Assembly (NCBI GenBank): GCA_003212375.1
Contig: QCPY01000012.1
Coordinates: 1 to 34,764 of the forward strand
Reading direction: 5' to 3'
Origin: Prochlorococcus sp. AG-442-N17
GTDB taxonomy: Bacteria > Cyanobacteriota > Cyanobacteriia > PCC-6307 > Cyanobiaceae
Length of the DNA: 34,764 nucleotides
Part shown: piece by piece, positions 380 to 31,540 of the stretch
Numbering within the stretch: position 1 is the first letter of the stretch
How the letters are laid out: every line of letters begins with the position of its first letter
Position numbers and translations under genes: made by a program
The notes under the pieces: model-generated
Seen by the model: only the letters and a program-made list of their open reading frames with translations
Database searches by the model: none
What the model was told of the DNA's origin: nothing

Positions 380-904
380 ATGAAACATACATTATCAGTA
401 CTCGTGGAAGATGAATCAGGCGCATTAAGTAGAATCTCAGGTCTTTTTGCCAGAAGAGGTTTTAATATAGATAGTCTTGCTGTTGGCCCTGCCGAATCTA
501 AAGGAATTTCTAGATTAACAATGGTGGTGGAAGGAGATAATGAAACCCTTCAACAAATGACAAAACAACTTAATAAATTATTTAATGTTCTTGGAGTCGT
601 GGACTTTACTAATCTTGCTGCTGTTGAGAGGGAATTAATGCTTCTTAAAGTCTCGTCTAAAGAAGATACTAGAAGTAATATTTTGGATATCGTTCAGATT
701 TTCAGAGCCAAAGTAGTAGATGTGTCTGATATTGCTTTAACTCTTGAGGTAGTAGGAGATCCGGGGAAATTAGTTGCTTTAGAAAAGCTTCTCGAACCTT
801 ATGGAATACTTGAGATTGCCAGAACAGGAAAAGTTGCCCTTAAGCGATCTTCGGGAGTAAACACTGAAATGTTAAAAATAAATAAATACTCTTTAGAAAT
901 TTAA
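380..904 (+). CDS. ilvH: Acetolactate synthase small (regulatory) subunit IlvH
   Basis: This is the regulatory subunit of acetohydroxyacid synthase, which makes acetolactate or acetohydroxybutyrate at the first shared step of branched-chain amino acid synthesis; the subunit stimulates the catalytic IlvB and confers valine feedback. The 174-residue length is usual. An N-terminal ACT domain (about residues 4-75) starts with [20 protein letters not shown] and contains the typical [12 protein letters not shown]; the C-terminal domain follows (about 80-155). The catalytic subunit is not in the window. The gene follows the hydrolase closely and ends tail-to-tail with the convergent cyclophilin gene, the two stop codons sharing one TTAA. 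Confidence 0.97.
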
Positions 905-1560
905 TTAGAAATCATTATTTCATAAATCAAATCTTCAGTGTCTAATTTATCTAGAATTTCAATCCCTTTAACAATTTTTCCAAAGACTGAATACCTTCCA
1001 TCTAATTCTGGAAAATTATTAGTTACGAAGAAAAATTCTGTAGAAGATGAATTTCCTTTCCCACTTTTTACCATTGCTATTGAGCCCTTTTCAAAAACGT
1101 TTGTAAGCTTGACAATTTTTGAGGGATCTACGATTTCATATCTATATTTTGGATGGATTTCTTTTTTTAATTTTATTTCCAAGGGGATATTTCGTTTAAT
1201 TTTAATTAAATTTTGATTTTTACCTCTATAAGAATTGATTTCTGAGTAAACACCTGAATGAATTAATTGAACTTGCTGAAAATTAATTATCTTATAAAAC
1301 CTTTTATTTTTATAAATATTATCTTTAATATTTTTAATAAAATTACTTACCGTTACTGGATTGTTTTCCCCATAAAGTATTACATCAAAATCCCCTTCAG
1401 AAGTCTTGAAAGACACAAAACTATTTCTTTTTATACAATTTAATTCAAGTCTTTTACAGTAATAATTAGTGTCTATAGAACTATTGTAACTGCAACCTGT
1501 TATTAATAATAAAAATAACTTAATTAGTAAAAGTGGTTTTAATAAATAAAAATTTATTAT
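901..1560 (-). CDS. Cyclophilin-like peptidyl-prolyl isomerase, predicted lipoprotein with ATA start
   Basis: The C-terminal 170 residues are a cyclophilin-type domain ([35 protein letters not shown]). The first ordinary start is GTG at 1416, but the frame continues upstream with no stop to 1560 and encodes a hydrophobic segment ending in a lipobox ([14 protein letters not shown]), so I extend the gene. No ATG, GTG or TTG exists there; ATA at 1560 (or 1557) is the likely start, 6 nt after GGAGGG (1572-1567) and overlapping the ycf4 stop as ATAA. Expected location is the outer face of a membrane, anchored through Cys. Several cyclophilin catalytic positions look changed (Glu for the usual Gln before FF, Tyr for the usual His before VFGK), so isomerase activity is doubtful. 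Domain confident; start inferred. Confidence 0.8.
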
Positions 1561-2114
1561 TTTAAACCCTCCAAATTCACATTAAGAAATCTAGCTAGTT
1601 TTGCTCCTTCTTCTTCAACTTGAAGTAATGGTTTTAGCTCACCGGCTCCACTAAGAGGAAGTGTCTTTTTTCTTCCTTTCAAAACTAATGCAATCCTTCT
1701 TCTTGGATTAAATCCCTCACTTATATCCAACTTCACAGATTTTATTTCATCGAAATTTAATTTAACTTCAATATCTTTAAAAAGTCCTTTTCTTTTAATT
1801 TCTATAGATTTTGAAGTTTTATCAAAAGAATTGTAACCTGAGCCAAAATTTATAAAAACTAAATACCATAAACAAATGTTTAATAAATTCGCTACTACTC
1901 CATAAGCTCCCATTATTATTCCTTGGGGTATAAAAAGTAAGGATGAAGGATTACCTAAAGGTAGTAGATCTCTTCCTGTATAGCTCGATATGGCAGCCAA
2001 AATAAAGCCTAACCCTCCGATCGTAAGCATTCCGCCTATTAAATAATTTGATATTTTTCTTGACCCATTTATTTTTTGTTCAATTTTATTAAATGAAGAA
2101 AGATTTGATTCCAT
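1557..2114 (-). CDS. ycf4: Photosystem I assembly protein Ycf4
   Basis: Ycf4 is a thylakoid protein that helps assemble photosystem I. The 185-residue length is normal for the family. Two membrane segments are evident (about residues 24-44, LIGGMLTIGGLGFILAA, and 62-90, with GIIMGAYGVVANLLNICLWY), followed by a soluble domain with the family-like GYNSFDK, RKGLFKDIEVKL and ISEGFNPRRRIALVLKG. It is divergent from psbD. Its last codons contain GGAGGG, which seems to serve as the ribosome-binding site of the downstream cyclophilin gene, so the two are probably translationally coupled. Confidence 0.95.
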   Translation of the reverse strand: MESNLSSFNKIEQKINGSRKISNYLIGGMLTIGGLGFILAAISSYTGRDLLPLGNPSSLLFIPQGIIMGAYGVVANLLNICLWYLVFINFGSGYNSFDKTSKSIEIKRKGLFKDIEVKLNFDEIKSVKLDISEGFNPRRRIALVLKGRKKTLPLSGAGELKPLLQVEEEGAKLARFLNVNLEGLK

Positions 2115-5480: not shown

Positions 5481-7010
5481 ATGGAATTTACAAAAAACTT
5501 TAATCCTAAAAACAAGCCAATTATGGTTTTGGGTACGTCAAGTGGAGCAGGCAAATCTTTAACAGTTACAGCAATTTGCAGATTACTTAAAAATCTTGGC
5601 GAAGAACCAATACCTTTTAAGGGACAAAATATGAGTAATAATGCATGGGTTGATTGGAATGGCGGAGAGATGGCATATTCACAAGCCTTACAAGCATTTG
5701 CTTGCGGAATTATTCCTTCTTCAGAGATGAATCCAATTCTATTAAAGCCACAAGGTAATTCAACGAGTGAAGTTATCCATTTAGGTAAGAGTATAGGTAT
5801 TACAACAGCCAAAGACTACTACAAAGATTGGGTTATTCCAGGATGGGAAGTTATTAAAAAAAGTTTAAATTTTATTTATTCAAAAAACCCAAATTGTCGT
5901 TTAATAATCGAAGGAGCAGGAAGTCCAGTAGAGATGAACTTAATTCATAGGGACCTTACTAATTTAAGAGTAGCAAAGTATTTAGAGGCAAATTGTATAT
6001 TGGTTACTGATATTGAAAGGGGAGGTGTATTTGCTCAAATCATAGGTACTCTTGAATTACTAGAACCAGAAGATAAAAAACTTATTAAAGGCATATTAAT
6101 AAATAGATTTAGAGGGGATCTGACATTATTTGAAGAAGGGAAAAAATGGATAGAAAATAAAACTAAAATTCCTGTTTTAGGAATAATTCCTTGGTTAGAT
6201 GATAAATTCCCCCCAGAAGATTCTTTAGATTTATTAGAAAGAAAATCGTATATTTCCAAACCAGAAATAAAAGTTGGAATTATAAAATTACCATCTATTA
6301 GTAACTTTTCAGATTTTGACCCTTTAGAGAATGAAGAATCTATATTAATTGAGTGGGTAATGAAATCCCAAAAATTGAATAAATTTGATTTTCTTATTCT
6401 CCCTGGAAGCAAACAGACTATTAAAGATCAACTCTTTCTTCAGGAGTCTGGGTTATCAAAAGATATAAAAGATTATTCTGATAATCATGGTAATATTTTT
6501 GGGATTTGTGGAGGTCTACAAATGTTGGGGACAATTCTTGAAGACCCATTTTTAAAAGAAGGGTCAAAAGATAATTTAAATCAATCAATTGAAGGAATTG
6601 GATTACTTCCTTTAAAAACAATTTTTCTTGAAAATAAGACAACAAGACAAATTAACTGTGAATCAGTGTGGCCGAATTTAACAGAGATCAATGGGTTTGA
6701 AATACATAATGGAGTAACTGAATTAGATATTAAGCAAGACACCTTTAATGTAAAGCCTATTTTTAAAGATTTAGATCTTGGCTGGGTTAAAGAGAATGGT
6801 GAAGGAGGTACTATTGCAGGAACTTATATTCATGGAATCTTTGAAAATGATGAATGGAGAGATCACTATATTAATTTAATTAGAAAAAGTAAAAATTTAC
6901 CATTCTCAAAGAAAAAAACCAGATCTTATAAAATGAAAAGAGAATCTATTATTGATAATCTTTCAAATGAATTTAATAAACACTTTAATATTTCATCACT
7001 TTTAAATTGA
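5481..7010 (+). CDS. cobQ: Cobyric acid synthase CobQ
   Basis: CobQ amidates four carboxylates of adenosylcobyrinic a,c-diamide with glutamine and ATP, in (pseudo)cobalamin synthesis. The 509 residues show an N-terminal synthetase domain with P-loop GTSSGAGKS (18-26) and IEGAGSPVEMNL, then a class I glutamine amidotransferase domain: FLILPGSKQTIKD, the nucleophile Cys343 in FGICGGLQMLG, and His451 in TYIHGIFEND. The triad is complete, so it should be functional. The stop overlaps the TTG start of the ferredoxin gene as TTGA, pointing to one operon. Confidence 0.97.
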   Translation: MEFTKNFNPKNKPIMVLGTSSGAGKSLTVTAICRLLKNLGEEPIPFKGQNMSNNAWVDWNGGEMAYSQALQAFACGIIPSSEMNPILLKPQGNSTSEVIHLGKSIGITTAKDYYKDWVIPGWEVIKKSLNFIYSKNPNCRLIIEGAGSPVEMNLIHRDLTNLRVAKYLEANCILVTDIERGGVFAQIIGTLELLEPEDKKLIKGILINRFRGDLTLFEEGKKWIENKTKIPVLGIIPWLDDKFPPEDSLDLLERKSYISKPEIKVGIIKLPSISNFSDFDPLENEESILIEWVMKSQKLNKFDFLILPGSKQTIKDQLFLQESGLSKDIKDYSDNHGNIFGICGGLQMLGTILEDPFLKEGSKDNLNQSIEGIGLLPLKTIFLENKTTRQINCESVWPNLTEINGFEIHNGVTELDIKQDTFNVKPIFKDLDLGWVKENGEGGTIAGTYIHGIFENDEWRDHYINLIRKSKNLPFSKKKTRSYKMKRESIIDNLSNEFNKHFNISSLLN

Positions 7011-10309: not shown

Positions 10310-10708
10310 TTAATAATTTTTATAGGACTTTTCTTCGACTATTACAGAATTATATTTTAAATTAATTTCTCTTTTAATTAGTGATCTTTCATCATTTACT
10401 TTATAAACTGATCTAGCTAATTCGATAAAATCATCATCAAATTCTTTTAAAGATTCTTTAATTCTAATTTTATCTTCAATTTTCCAAAGACTTAGATTAA
10501 TTTTTTTAAGCTTCAAATATAAATTTTGATCAACATCTAATTTTTCATCATGAAGAATAACTTTTAATGATTTCAATTCATTATTGACATTCTTGATTTT
10601 TTCTCCACTCATATATTTTTTCTTGATTTCTAATATAGTTAATTTATCAATTAATTCTCCTACTGAAATAGGGGCAAAGACATTAAAAAAAGGTTTTTCA
10701 ATACTCAA
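10310..10708 (-). CDS. DUF6165 family protein
   Basis: A 132-residue, highly charged, mostly helical protein without signal peptide or membrane segment. The start MSIEKPFFNVFAPISVGELIDKLTI and the KKKYMSGEKIKNVNNELKSL helix resemble DUF6165, a small family of unknown function often found with glycosyltransferases; I recall this and could not search. The start TTG 10708 overlaps the stop of the upstream TPR-glycosyltransferase gene as TTGA, so the two are almost certainly co-translated, and a partner role in the same surface-glycan reaction is inferred. Confidence 0.78.
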   Translation of the reverse strand: MSIEKPFFNVFAPISVGELIDKLTILEIKKKYMSGEKIKNVNNELKSLKVILHDEKLDVDQNLYLKLKKINLSLWKIEDKIRIKESLKEFDDDFIELARSVYKVNDERSLIKREINLKYNSVIVEEKSYKNY

Positions 10709-25389: not shown

Positions 25390-25464
25390 ATTTAACTTGT
25401 ACTAAAAAAAATACATAACATTACACCAATAAAGTTAAAATTACATAACTAAAAGAAAAATACT

Positions 25465-26376
25465 ATTTACGCTCTTTTCATAAACATCATACCATTCTTA
25501 ACTTTTGGTTTTTTTATTGGAAAAATAAAACCAAAACTTTCAGAATCCATAGCTATTCCTCTTATTAAATATGGTATTCCTTTGAGTGTCATGAGCCTCT
25601 TATTAAAAGAAGGAATTGATACAGATTTAATTAAAACTGCTTTGATTGCTTTTTTTTTAATTGGATTTTTGATAATTCTAATTAATTATTTTTCAGTTTT
25701 AAAAACTAAACTACCTAATTATTCCATACAATTAGCTGGCTTAATAGGAAATACATCATTTCTTGGAATCCCAATTGCTATAGCTCTTCTTCCAATAAGC
25801 ACTATTAATTTTACAATAGGCTTTGATTTAGGAACAACTCTCTTTGCATGGATATTTGGACCTTTCTTTCTGCAAAAAAATGAGAACTCAAATAATAAAC
25901 TTAAATTTAAAGAACTTTTAAAAGCGATATTAAACAGTCCGGCCTCAAGAGGGATTATAGGTGTGATGATTGCATATCTTTTTGGGTTAGAACGCGTTTT
26001 GGGCGATTATCTGTGGATCCCAGCAAAAATTGTCATAGCTTTAGCAATAGTTATTGTCGGAACCAGACTTGGAATAATAACAAATCACAAAATTAAATTT
26101 TTTAATTTTGATAACGGGATTAAATATTCAATAATATTAAAGTTAATTATTATGCCTTTGATTATATATTTTGTAAGCAAAATCTTAAATTTTAATCTTA
26201 ACGAGACGTCTGCAGTTGTTCTTCAAGCTGGTACTCCATCTGCAGTCTCAACAATCTTGATGGCTGAAGCATTTAAAAAGAATGAACAGTTAGCGGCTAC
26301 AATTCTTTTTTCAACAACGTTAATTTCAATAATTACTATCCCTTTTTTAGCAATTTTACTAAAAATTACTAATTAA
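25465..26376 (+). CDS. AEC (auxin efflux carrier) family permease, non-standard start
   Basis: The family's two-bundle membrane architecture is visible: VMSLLLKEG, GLIGNTSFLGIPIAIALLP with the central Asn/Pro region, and VLQAGTPSAVSTILMAEAF, a typical AEC motif. The first ordinary start is TTG 25582 (264 aa), but it would cut off the conserved first helix: the frame is open from 25453 and encodes LFINIIPFLTFGFFIGKIKP and LSESIAIPLIKYGIP. Counting from an ATT at 25465 the protein has about 303 residues, the usual length. No ATG, GTG or TTG exists in that extension. Substrate unknown (AEC members move carboxylates or auxin-like acids). Confidence 0.8.
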   Translation: MYALFINIIPFLTFGFFIGKIKPKLSESIAIPLIKYGIPLSVMSLLLKEGIDTDLIKTALIAFFLIGFLIILINYFSVLKTKLPNYSIQLAGLIGNTSFLGIPIAIALLPISTINFTIGFDLGTTLFAWIFGPFFLQKNENSNNKLKFKELLKAILNSPASRGIIGVMIAYLFGLERVLGDYLWIPAKIVIALAIVIVGTRLGIITNHKIKFFNFDNGIKYSIILKLIIMPLIIYFVSKILNFNLNETSAVVLQAGTPSAVSTILMAEAFKKNEQLAATILFSTTLISIITIPFLAILLKITN

Positions 26377-29150: not shown

Positions 29151-29948
29151 ATGATTTGGCCTTTTAGACGAAAGTCAAAAAAAAGAATGGCTCGGATAGT
29201 AATTGATGAGCCAATTACAAGTTCAACAAGAATTTCTGTCATCAAAGCTTTAAAACAAGTTGAAGATAGAGAGTTTCCAGCATTAATTTTGAGAATCGAC
29301 TCACCAGGTGGGACCGTTGGTGATAGCCAAGAAATATACTCTGCTATTAAACGACTAAAAGAGAAAGGATGTAAAGTAATTGCTAGTTTTGGAAACATAT
29401 CTGCTTCTGGTGGGGTTTACATCGGTGTAGCTTCCGACAAAATTGTAGCTAACCCAGGAACAATTACGGGCTCAATTGGTGTAATAATAAGAGGAAATAA
29501 TTTATCTGAGCTATTGAATAAAATCGGTATAAAGTTTGAGACTGTAAAAAGTGGTATTTATAAAGATATTCTTTCGCCTGATAAACCTTTAAGTGATGAA
29601 GGCAGAAAACTCTTACAAGGACTAATAGATGAAAGTTATAAACAATTTACTGAGGCGGTTGCAGAAGGTAGGAATTTGCCCATCGAAGATGTAAAGAAGT
29701 TTGCTGATGGAAGAATCTTTACTGGAACTCAAGCCAAAGAACTTGGTTTAGTCGACGAAATTGGTGATGAATTTGCAGCGAGAGATCTTGCAGCTGAAAT
29801 GGTTAAAATCGATCCAAAAATACAACCTGTAACTTTTGGTAAGAAAAAAAAGAAAATACTCGGGCTCATTCCTGGAAGTAAAATTGTTCAAAATATATTT
29901 TTTGAATTAAATTCATCTAATAAAATGCTTTGGTTATATAAACCTTGA
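29151..29948 (+). CDS. sppA: Signal peptide peptidase SppA (short form)
   Basis: A ClpP/crotonase-fold serine protease that degrades cleaved signal peptides; the short form of about 265 residues. Signatures: LILRIDSPGGTVGDSQEIY, the nucleophile Ser86 in FGNISASGGVYIGVASDKI, NPGTITGSIGVI, and the lysine motif VKSGIYKDILSP with the candidate general base around 133-138. I start at ATG 29151; a TTG at 29136 would add five residues. No N-terminal membrane anchor is visible. Its TGA overlaps a TTG of aroH. Confidence 0.93.
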   Translation: MIWPFRRKSKKRMARIVIDEPITSSTRISVIKALKQVEDREFPALILRIDSPGGTVGDSQEIYSAIKRLKEKGCKVIASFGNISASGGVYIGVASDKIVANPGTITGSIGVIIRGNNLSELLNKIGIKFETVKSGIYKDILSPDKPLSDEGRKLLQGLIDESYKQFTEAVAEGRNLPIEDVKKFADGRIFTGTQAKELGLVDEIGDEFAARDLAAEMVKIDPKIQPVTFGKKKKKILGLIPGSKIVQNIFFELNSSNKMLWLYKP

Positions 29949-31153: not shown

Positions 31154-31540
31154 ATGGCCTTGCCAAAAGCTATGCGTCTAAAAGGTCATAGGGCCTTCGA
31201 TCATATTCATAAAAATTCGGTTAAATATTACGGAAAATTAATGACTTTAAAAATAGCAAGATCAAACCCTAATATTCTTATCTCTCATAAAAACATCGAT
31301 AGTTTAGAAAATTTAAAGATTGCAATAGCTATTAGTAAAAAAGTTTCAAAAAAAGCTGTTTTAAGAAATAAAATAAGGAGACTATTGCAGGATTGGTTAT
31401 TTAAAAACTTTGGTGAAGAGAAGAACCACAAACCTTATTGGTTACTTGTTAACCTTAAAGCTGGTGTTTCCTTCAGCGATAGAATTAAACTTCTTGAAGA
31501 ATTTCAACATCTAATTTATAAGTCAGGTCTTTTTAAATGA
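31154..31540 (+). CDS. rnpA: Ribonuclease P protein component
   Basis: The protein cofactor of RNase P, which trims the 5' ends of tRNA precursors with the catalytic RNA. The 128 residues include the LRLKGHRAFDHI-like start (MRLKGHRAFDHI) and the RNR-type motif KKAVLRNKIRRLLQDW near residue 75-90, which binds the RNA. Its TGA overlaps the next ATG by four bases (ATGA). Confidence 0.97.
   Translation: MALPKAMRLKGHRAFDHIHKNSVKYYGKLMTLKIARSNPNILISHKNIDSLENLKIAIAISKKVSKKAVLRNKIRRLLQDWLFKNFGEEKNHKPYWLLVNLKAGVSFSDRIKLLEEFQHLIYKSGLFK

Follow-up and report, generated by a model that had tools for sequence, protein, structure and literature searches.

Bacteria very rarely use AUA as a start codon. 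Where, then, does translation begin in a gene whose signal peptide lies ahead of every ATG, GTG and TTG in its frame? The question is raised by a lipoprotein-cyclophilin gene of Prochlorococcus sp. AG-442-N17, found in a window of 34,764 nucleotides (the whole stretch of DNA that was analysed, from contig QCPY01000012.1). The frame of this gene, which is −1 relative to ycf4, opens on the minus strand at ATA 1560 and overlaps the ycf4 stop as ATAA. The 3′ end of ycf4 holds a Shine-Dalgarno (SD) motif, and its stop codon TAA (1559-1557) shares letters with the ATA. The features of the locus are as follows.

1557..2114, minus strand: ycf4, photosystem I assembly protein, the upstream gene (ORF list; Pfam PF02392 Ycf4, E 6.4e-55)
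1582..1584, minus strand: in-frame stop TAA upstream of ATA (read from sequence)
1567..1572, minus strand: GGAGGG, SD motif within ycf4 codons GAG GGT, complementary to the 16S 3′ end (read from sequence)
1558..1560, minus strand: ATA, proposed start codon, with the overlap ATAA at 1560-1557 (sequence; kept in 76/77 distinct loci)
1495..1560, minus strand: predicted lipoprotein signal peptide, 22 codons, last residues ITG ahead of Cys (translation, orthologue comparison)
1492..1494, minus strand: predicted lipobox Cys codon TGC, ITG/C (sequence and orthologue comparison)
1414..1416, minus strand: GTG, first ordinary start in frame, downstream of the lipobox (ORF list)
901..1560, minus strand: lipoprotein-cyclophilin frame, ATA to stop TAA 903-901, 219 codons plus stop (Pfam PF00160)

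A preliminary description of this DNA had placed the ycf4 stop, ATA, GGAGGG and GTG 1416 at these positions, and all four hold on re-reading of the minus strand. Its statement that the signal peptide and lipobox lie upstream of every ordinary start is borne out as well: the Cys codon (1494-1492) precedes the first ATG, GTG or TTG of the frame, which is GTG 1416, 48 codons after ATA. Six nucleotides (TTTAAA) separate GGAGGG (1572-1567) from ATA 1560, as had been described, and the spacing is 7 when the motif is counted as GGAGG; the ATAA overlap with the ycf4 stop is likewise read in the sequence. The in-frame TAA at 1584-1582 limits how far upstream the frame can open, and a start further upstream is thus ruled out. 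Four-nucleotide overlaps like this one had also been noted elsewhere in the window, and four occur among pairs of candidate ORFs in the ORF list (7007-7010, 10705-10708, 29945-29948 and 31537-31540).

Alignment of orthologues at the ATA codon, the check proposed in the preliminary description, gave a nearly uniform answer. Fetched loci with ycf4 at least 75% identical formed a same-genus set of 103, reduced to 77 by removing sequence duplicates; the non-cyanobacterial loci L036-L043 were excluded, as were two paralogues (L002, L003) and L160, truncated by the end of its contig. The codon overlapping the ycf4 stop is ATA in 76 of the 77 distinct loci, GTA in one (L151, from genome G413) and ATG in none. 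The ycf4 stops are TAA in 70 loci, TAG in seven and TGA in none, and the start-stop overlap reads ATAA or ATAG in 76/77. An independent pattern search matched 186 of 266 same-genus genomes; among the matches listed, all of those at the lipoprotein locus carry ATA except that of G413, and three further hits lie at other places (G448, contig 19 of G002 and contig 11 of G367). When 40 genomes, mostly without a pattern match, were searched again, the gene was present in 14; it was not found (E 1e-20) in three of the nine genomes among these 40 that are at least 90% complete.

A sequencing error and a strain-specific ATG-to-ATA mutation, both of which had been considered for this codon, are ruled out by the presence of ATA in nearly all loci and of ATG in none. 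Comparison of sequences thus confirms the original observation as neither an error nor a lone mutation. The wider proposal, that the locus reflects sequencing error or a decaying pseudogene, can draw on two loci, L069 and L159, in which frame-breaking 1-nt indels move ATA out of the main frame and which may represent either real loss or sequence error. However, the main frame is open from the ATA codon in the other 75 loci, 76/77 agree at the codon, and the window's ORF runs uninterrupted from ATA to its stop, with a cyclophilin-family match; decay or error is scarcely credible as a general explanation.

Conservation of these three letters has a second possible source. They result from any final ycf4 sense codon with A in third position, once TAA or TAG comes next, and AAG is rare at most Lys positions of ycf4 in any case: it makes up 1 of 74 Lys codons at the last position, 1-17% at 15 of the 16 other Lys columns scored, and 71% at the remaining one. 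The ATA is in part a passive outcome of ycf4 Lys AAA plus TAA or TAG. Since the codon is partly imposed in this way, its conservation alone proves less than it seems, and the weight of the case rests on the missing alternative starts, the fixed SD and the coding character of the leader.

Usable ordinary starts are missing from most loci of the genus. In 74/77 same-genus loci, no ATG, GTG or TTG is far enough upstream to leave 13 or more codons ahead of the lipobox Cys, and in 11/77 there is none whatsoever before the Cys. Three loci depart from this pattern: L151 (TTG at −17), L154 (TTG at −15) and L069 (TTG at −16, in a broken frame). L151 is also the sole GTA locus, as if its start had moved to the TTG 17 codons before Cys.

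The same gene pair looks different outside the genus. Forty-six loci were read from 238 other-genus genomes with a hit, and ycf4 lies just upstream in all 46. An automatic scan found ATG in 29 of them and only GTG or TTG in 14, and failed in three, comprising two falsely placed Cys residues and one locus without a lipobox match; by eye all three have ordinary starts, making one available in 46/46. The automatic Cys was also misplaced in L099 and L110, both of which have an ATG. In three loci of genus g83 (L071, L075 and L107), the only ordinary start before the lipobox is a TTG located 11 nt upstream of the ycf4 stop, which gives a longer n-region. In a protein tree, the 77 same-genus loci fall on one side of a branch with support of 100/100, a value obtained with long branches and a bootstrap that had not settled. 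This grouping fits a single switch to AUA at the root of the genus.

The SD motif is invariant in the genus. All 77 loci carry GGAGG at a spacing of precisely 7 nt upstream of the codon, and the ycf4 Glu codon within the motif is GAG in every one, while at eight of nine other scored ycf4 Glu columns GAG accounts for 1-18% (GAA being dominant) and at the ninth for 79%. For a genomic background, 281 genes of a relative (G015) were given an ordinary start by a heuristic, and 30 could not be. GGAGG is upstream of none of the 281, and 257 of them lack an SD match of at least 4 nt, which agrees with a remark in one paper, as excerpted, that Prochlorococcus is likely not reliant on SD (PMC5607370). 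The anti-SD GGATCACCTCCT is present at the 16S 3′ end in 6/6 genomes and was confirmed as SSU rRNA for the genome of the window. On these counts the SD is exceptional for the genus. The predicted fold of the window RNA shows nothing notable at the junction (MFE −13.8 kcal/mol, z −1.13), and the SD is partly paired in it.

These data also bear on whether the ATA is just the ycf4 Lys-stop junction and the true start another near-cognate codon in the leader. ATA can arise passively from A plus TA(A/G), and it occupies the ycf4-stop position in 2/46 other-genus loci (L073 and L093), apparently by accident, as each has an ATG nearby. However, the 7-nt SD spacing suits ATA, and the second codon varies among the 77 loci (AAA 58, AGA 7, GGA 4, ATA 2, AAG 2, GAT 2, ATT 1, GAA 1), so no other near-cognate codon directly after the SD is common to them. 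A start at such a codon is highly improbable.

The leader itself behaves as coding sequence. It was analysed in 75 loci, with L069 and L159 dropped, and is stop-free in frame in all 75, with stops in the other two frames in 69/75 and 23/75; only 14% of mononucleotide shuffles of the leader are stop-free. The commonest leader length is shared by 50 loci, and here pN/pS amounts to 0.65 for the reading frame versus 0.99 and 1.24 for the other two. The 16 loci of the next leader length give 0.68 in frame versus 0.70 (offset 1) and 1.24, values that make the comparison of frame 0 with offset 1 uninformative in this group. The net charge of codons 2-8 is +1 to +5 in 75/75 loci, and a loose regular expression finds a lipobox-like match within codons 13-40 in 77/77. 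With a positive n-region, a hydrophobic core and a lipobox Cys, the predicted product has the features of a lipoprotein.

Could an ordinary codon further down serve as the start, either a TTG within the stretch that encodes the hydrophobic core or the GTG at 1416, yielding a cytoplasmic or differently targeted cyclophilin? Many same-genus loci do have a TTG 4-6 codons before Cys, and the window offers the GTG. Such a TTG leaves no room for a signal peptide, however, and the window lipobox lies upstream of GTG 1416. The 11 loci without any ordinary codon before Cys and the stop-free leader upstream of the TTGs, with its coding-like substitutions in the 50-locus group, also speak against this reading, which is very unlikely.

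A different route to the same protein would dispense with a separate start: a programmed −1 frameshift at the end of ycf4, with U UUA AAA as slippery sequence, the UAA stop and GGAGG as stimulator, would generate a Ycf4-cyclophilin fusion. The window sequence T TTA AAA TAA supplies a classic slippery heptamer in the required frame, preceded by an SD-like element, and the lipoprotein frame has the −1 offset that such an event demands. But a conserved slippery heptamer of the form X XXY YYZ, the mark of a −1 frameshift site, was not found. TTTAAAA occurs in 22/77 distinct loci, which disfavours the fusion, and the rest carry CCTAAAA (20), CTTAAAA (20), TCTAAAA (3), TTTGAAA (3), AATAAAA (3), TTTAAGA (2) and four singletons. 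The leader moreover keeps a positive n-region and a lipobox Cys that are not needed in a fusion, and in other genera the same gene is started independently. Frameshifting is accordingly judged improbable, and initiation at AUA is the reading preferred here.

The body of the protein matches Pro_isomerase (PF00160) over residues 48-208, with E 5.9e-26 and 92 bits against a curated cut-off of 21.7 (Pfam). The active-site segment was compared by a simple pattern, which left six loci unmatched. In cyclophilins, the Arg of the segment F-H-R-V-I is presumably catalytic. FHRV or FNRV is present in 42 of 43 pattern-matched other-genus proteins, whereas 72 of 74 pattern-matched same-genus proteins read FYK, and the catalytic Arg was not found in that segment. 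This replacement makes prolyl isomerase activity doubtful, and the domain is best described as having a predicted cyclophilin-like fold.

Codon, SD and open frame are conserved, and alternative starts are absent. Judged from these comparisons, the gene is very probably translated from the AUA that overlaps the ycf4 stop, by SD-directed initiation or re-initiation. The strong SD in the last ycf4 codons would set a 30S subunit with AUA in the P site; alternatively, a ribosome that has only just finished translating ycf4 may be placed on the AUA in lieu of a fresh 30S subunit. Initiator tRNA-fMet (anticodon CAU) would start on AUA despite the third-position mismatch, giving Met as the presumed first residue. 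The product would comprise a short lipoprotein signal peptide, with net positive n-region, hydrophobic core and lipobox, followed by the cyclophilin-like domain. Initiation at this AUA is probably weak, by analogy with the AUA starts mapped in Staphylococcus aureus, and the expected result is a low yield linked to ycf4.

Other genes lacking ordinary starts were sought by comparing G015 with G319 over two 200-kb blocks each. The scan flagged 11 of 118 pairs at a threshold of at least 8 aa and 29 of 201 pairs at one of at least 6 aa. Three genes were kept by eye: the lipoprotein gene, an AEC-type permease and an scpA-like gene. On visual inspection the other 37 flags were explained in one of three ways: similarity of the upstream DNA, a second gene overlapping the first, or an ordinary start where one would be expected. 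The permease lies in the window.

about 25453-26376, plus strand: AEC-type permease, possible AUU/AUC start, ATT at 25465 (PF03547, E 8e-12)

Its first ATG, GTG or TTG is TTG 25582, about 39 codons inside the conserved frame, and no ordinary start precedes alignment codon 14 in 30/32 same-genus loci. At codon index 3, 12 of these 32 loci have ATT and the other 20 have ATC, and no SD was noted. In other genera, a crude scan found an ordinary start near that point in 22/25 loci, the exceptions being L247, L248 and L256, and these three weaken the case. This permease, whose candidate start lies near 25465, could be another but weaker instance of a near-cognate start. In several relatives the conserved N-terminus of the scpA-like gene (L258-L287; G015:C1:148510-149395) lacks an ordinary start, and no near-cognate codon is common to the conserved part across the 30 loci of this gene. 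It is conceivable, as a tentative idea, that the genus has come to tolerate near-cognate codons as the starts of several conserved genes, with AUA at the lipoprotein gene, AUU or AUC at the AEC-type permease, and possibly further cases. A strong SD kept or created in an SD-shedding lineage would then support a codon that is otherwise rejected. One substitution in the ycf4 stop, giving TGA in place of TAA, would be enough to make the ATA an ATG. TGA ends 44 of 311 sampled genes, yet it ends none of the 77 ycf4 genes, and weak initiation may therefore itself be selected.

Near-cognate starts are familiar from infC and similar autoregulated genes, which begin with AUU, AUC or AUA, codons that IF3 discriminates against. 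The lipoprotein gene shares the near-cognate start with these genes. Unlike them, it shows no visible link to IF3: infC starts at ATG in 17/17 family loci read, and a search for infC gave no hit in the window's own genome.

Closer parallels come from S. aureus. According to the excerpted account of one study, mapped starts include AUA for infC, ccpN and citZ, and AUU for cvfC1, and an extended SD is described for infC, ccpN and cvfC1, three of the four near-cognate sites (PMC13009471). In reporters, that account gives initiation at about 10% of AUG, with ccpN rising to as much as 30% when the medium was rich (PMC13009471). So far as this account goes, the likeness lies in a natural AUA combined with a strong SD, and initiation in S. 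aureus is reduced; the AUA of S. aureus ccpN is also conserved across species. The Prochlorococcus case differs in phylum and genes, in the overlap of its AUA with an upstream stop (AUAA), in a host genus that is otherwise SD-poor, and in that its start is proposed from sequence comparison.

Stop-start overlaps of the ATGA type occur widely and have been connected with termination-reinitiation, as stated in an excerpt of another paper (PMC6728339). Like the ATGA and TGATG coupled pairs as outlined there, the present locus has a 4-nt stop/start overlap with an SD inside the upstream gene, and its coupling is putative. Unlike ATGA pairs, it starts with AUA, which gives an overlap of AUAA or AUAG in place of AUGA. 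An ATA start is also annotated for plastid dnaB of the red algae Pyropia haitanensis and P. yezoensis, in the excerpt consulted (PMC3667073). As given there, it is likewise an ATA start in the cyanobacterial-plastid lineage, but one in a plastid, in an unrelated gene and by annotation only. A literature search on Prochlorococcus with non-canonical, ATA or AUA start codons found no report of such an arrangement. An AUA start with a reinforced SD would thus be of a known kind, and its arrangement here appears to be new.

For annotation, start callers restricted to ATG, GTG and TTG would place the start past the lipobox, and the gene would appear to encode a truncated cytoplasmic cyclophilin and not a lipoprotein. 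Should initiation at AUA prove genuine, this gene pair would be an example of stop and start codons overlapping as AUAA. The locus would also constitute a natural experiment on what makes a ribosome accept AUA, with its contrasts already in place: a fixed strong SD in an SD-poor genome, 46 other-genus loci with ordinary starts, and one same-genus locus that lacks the ATA and has a TTG.
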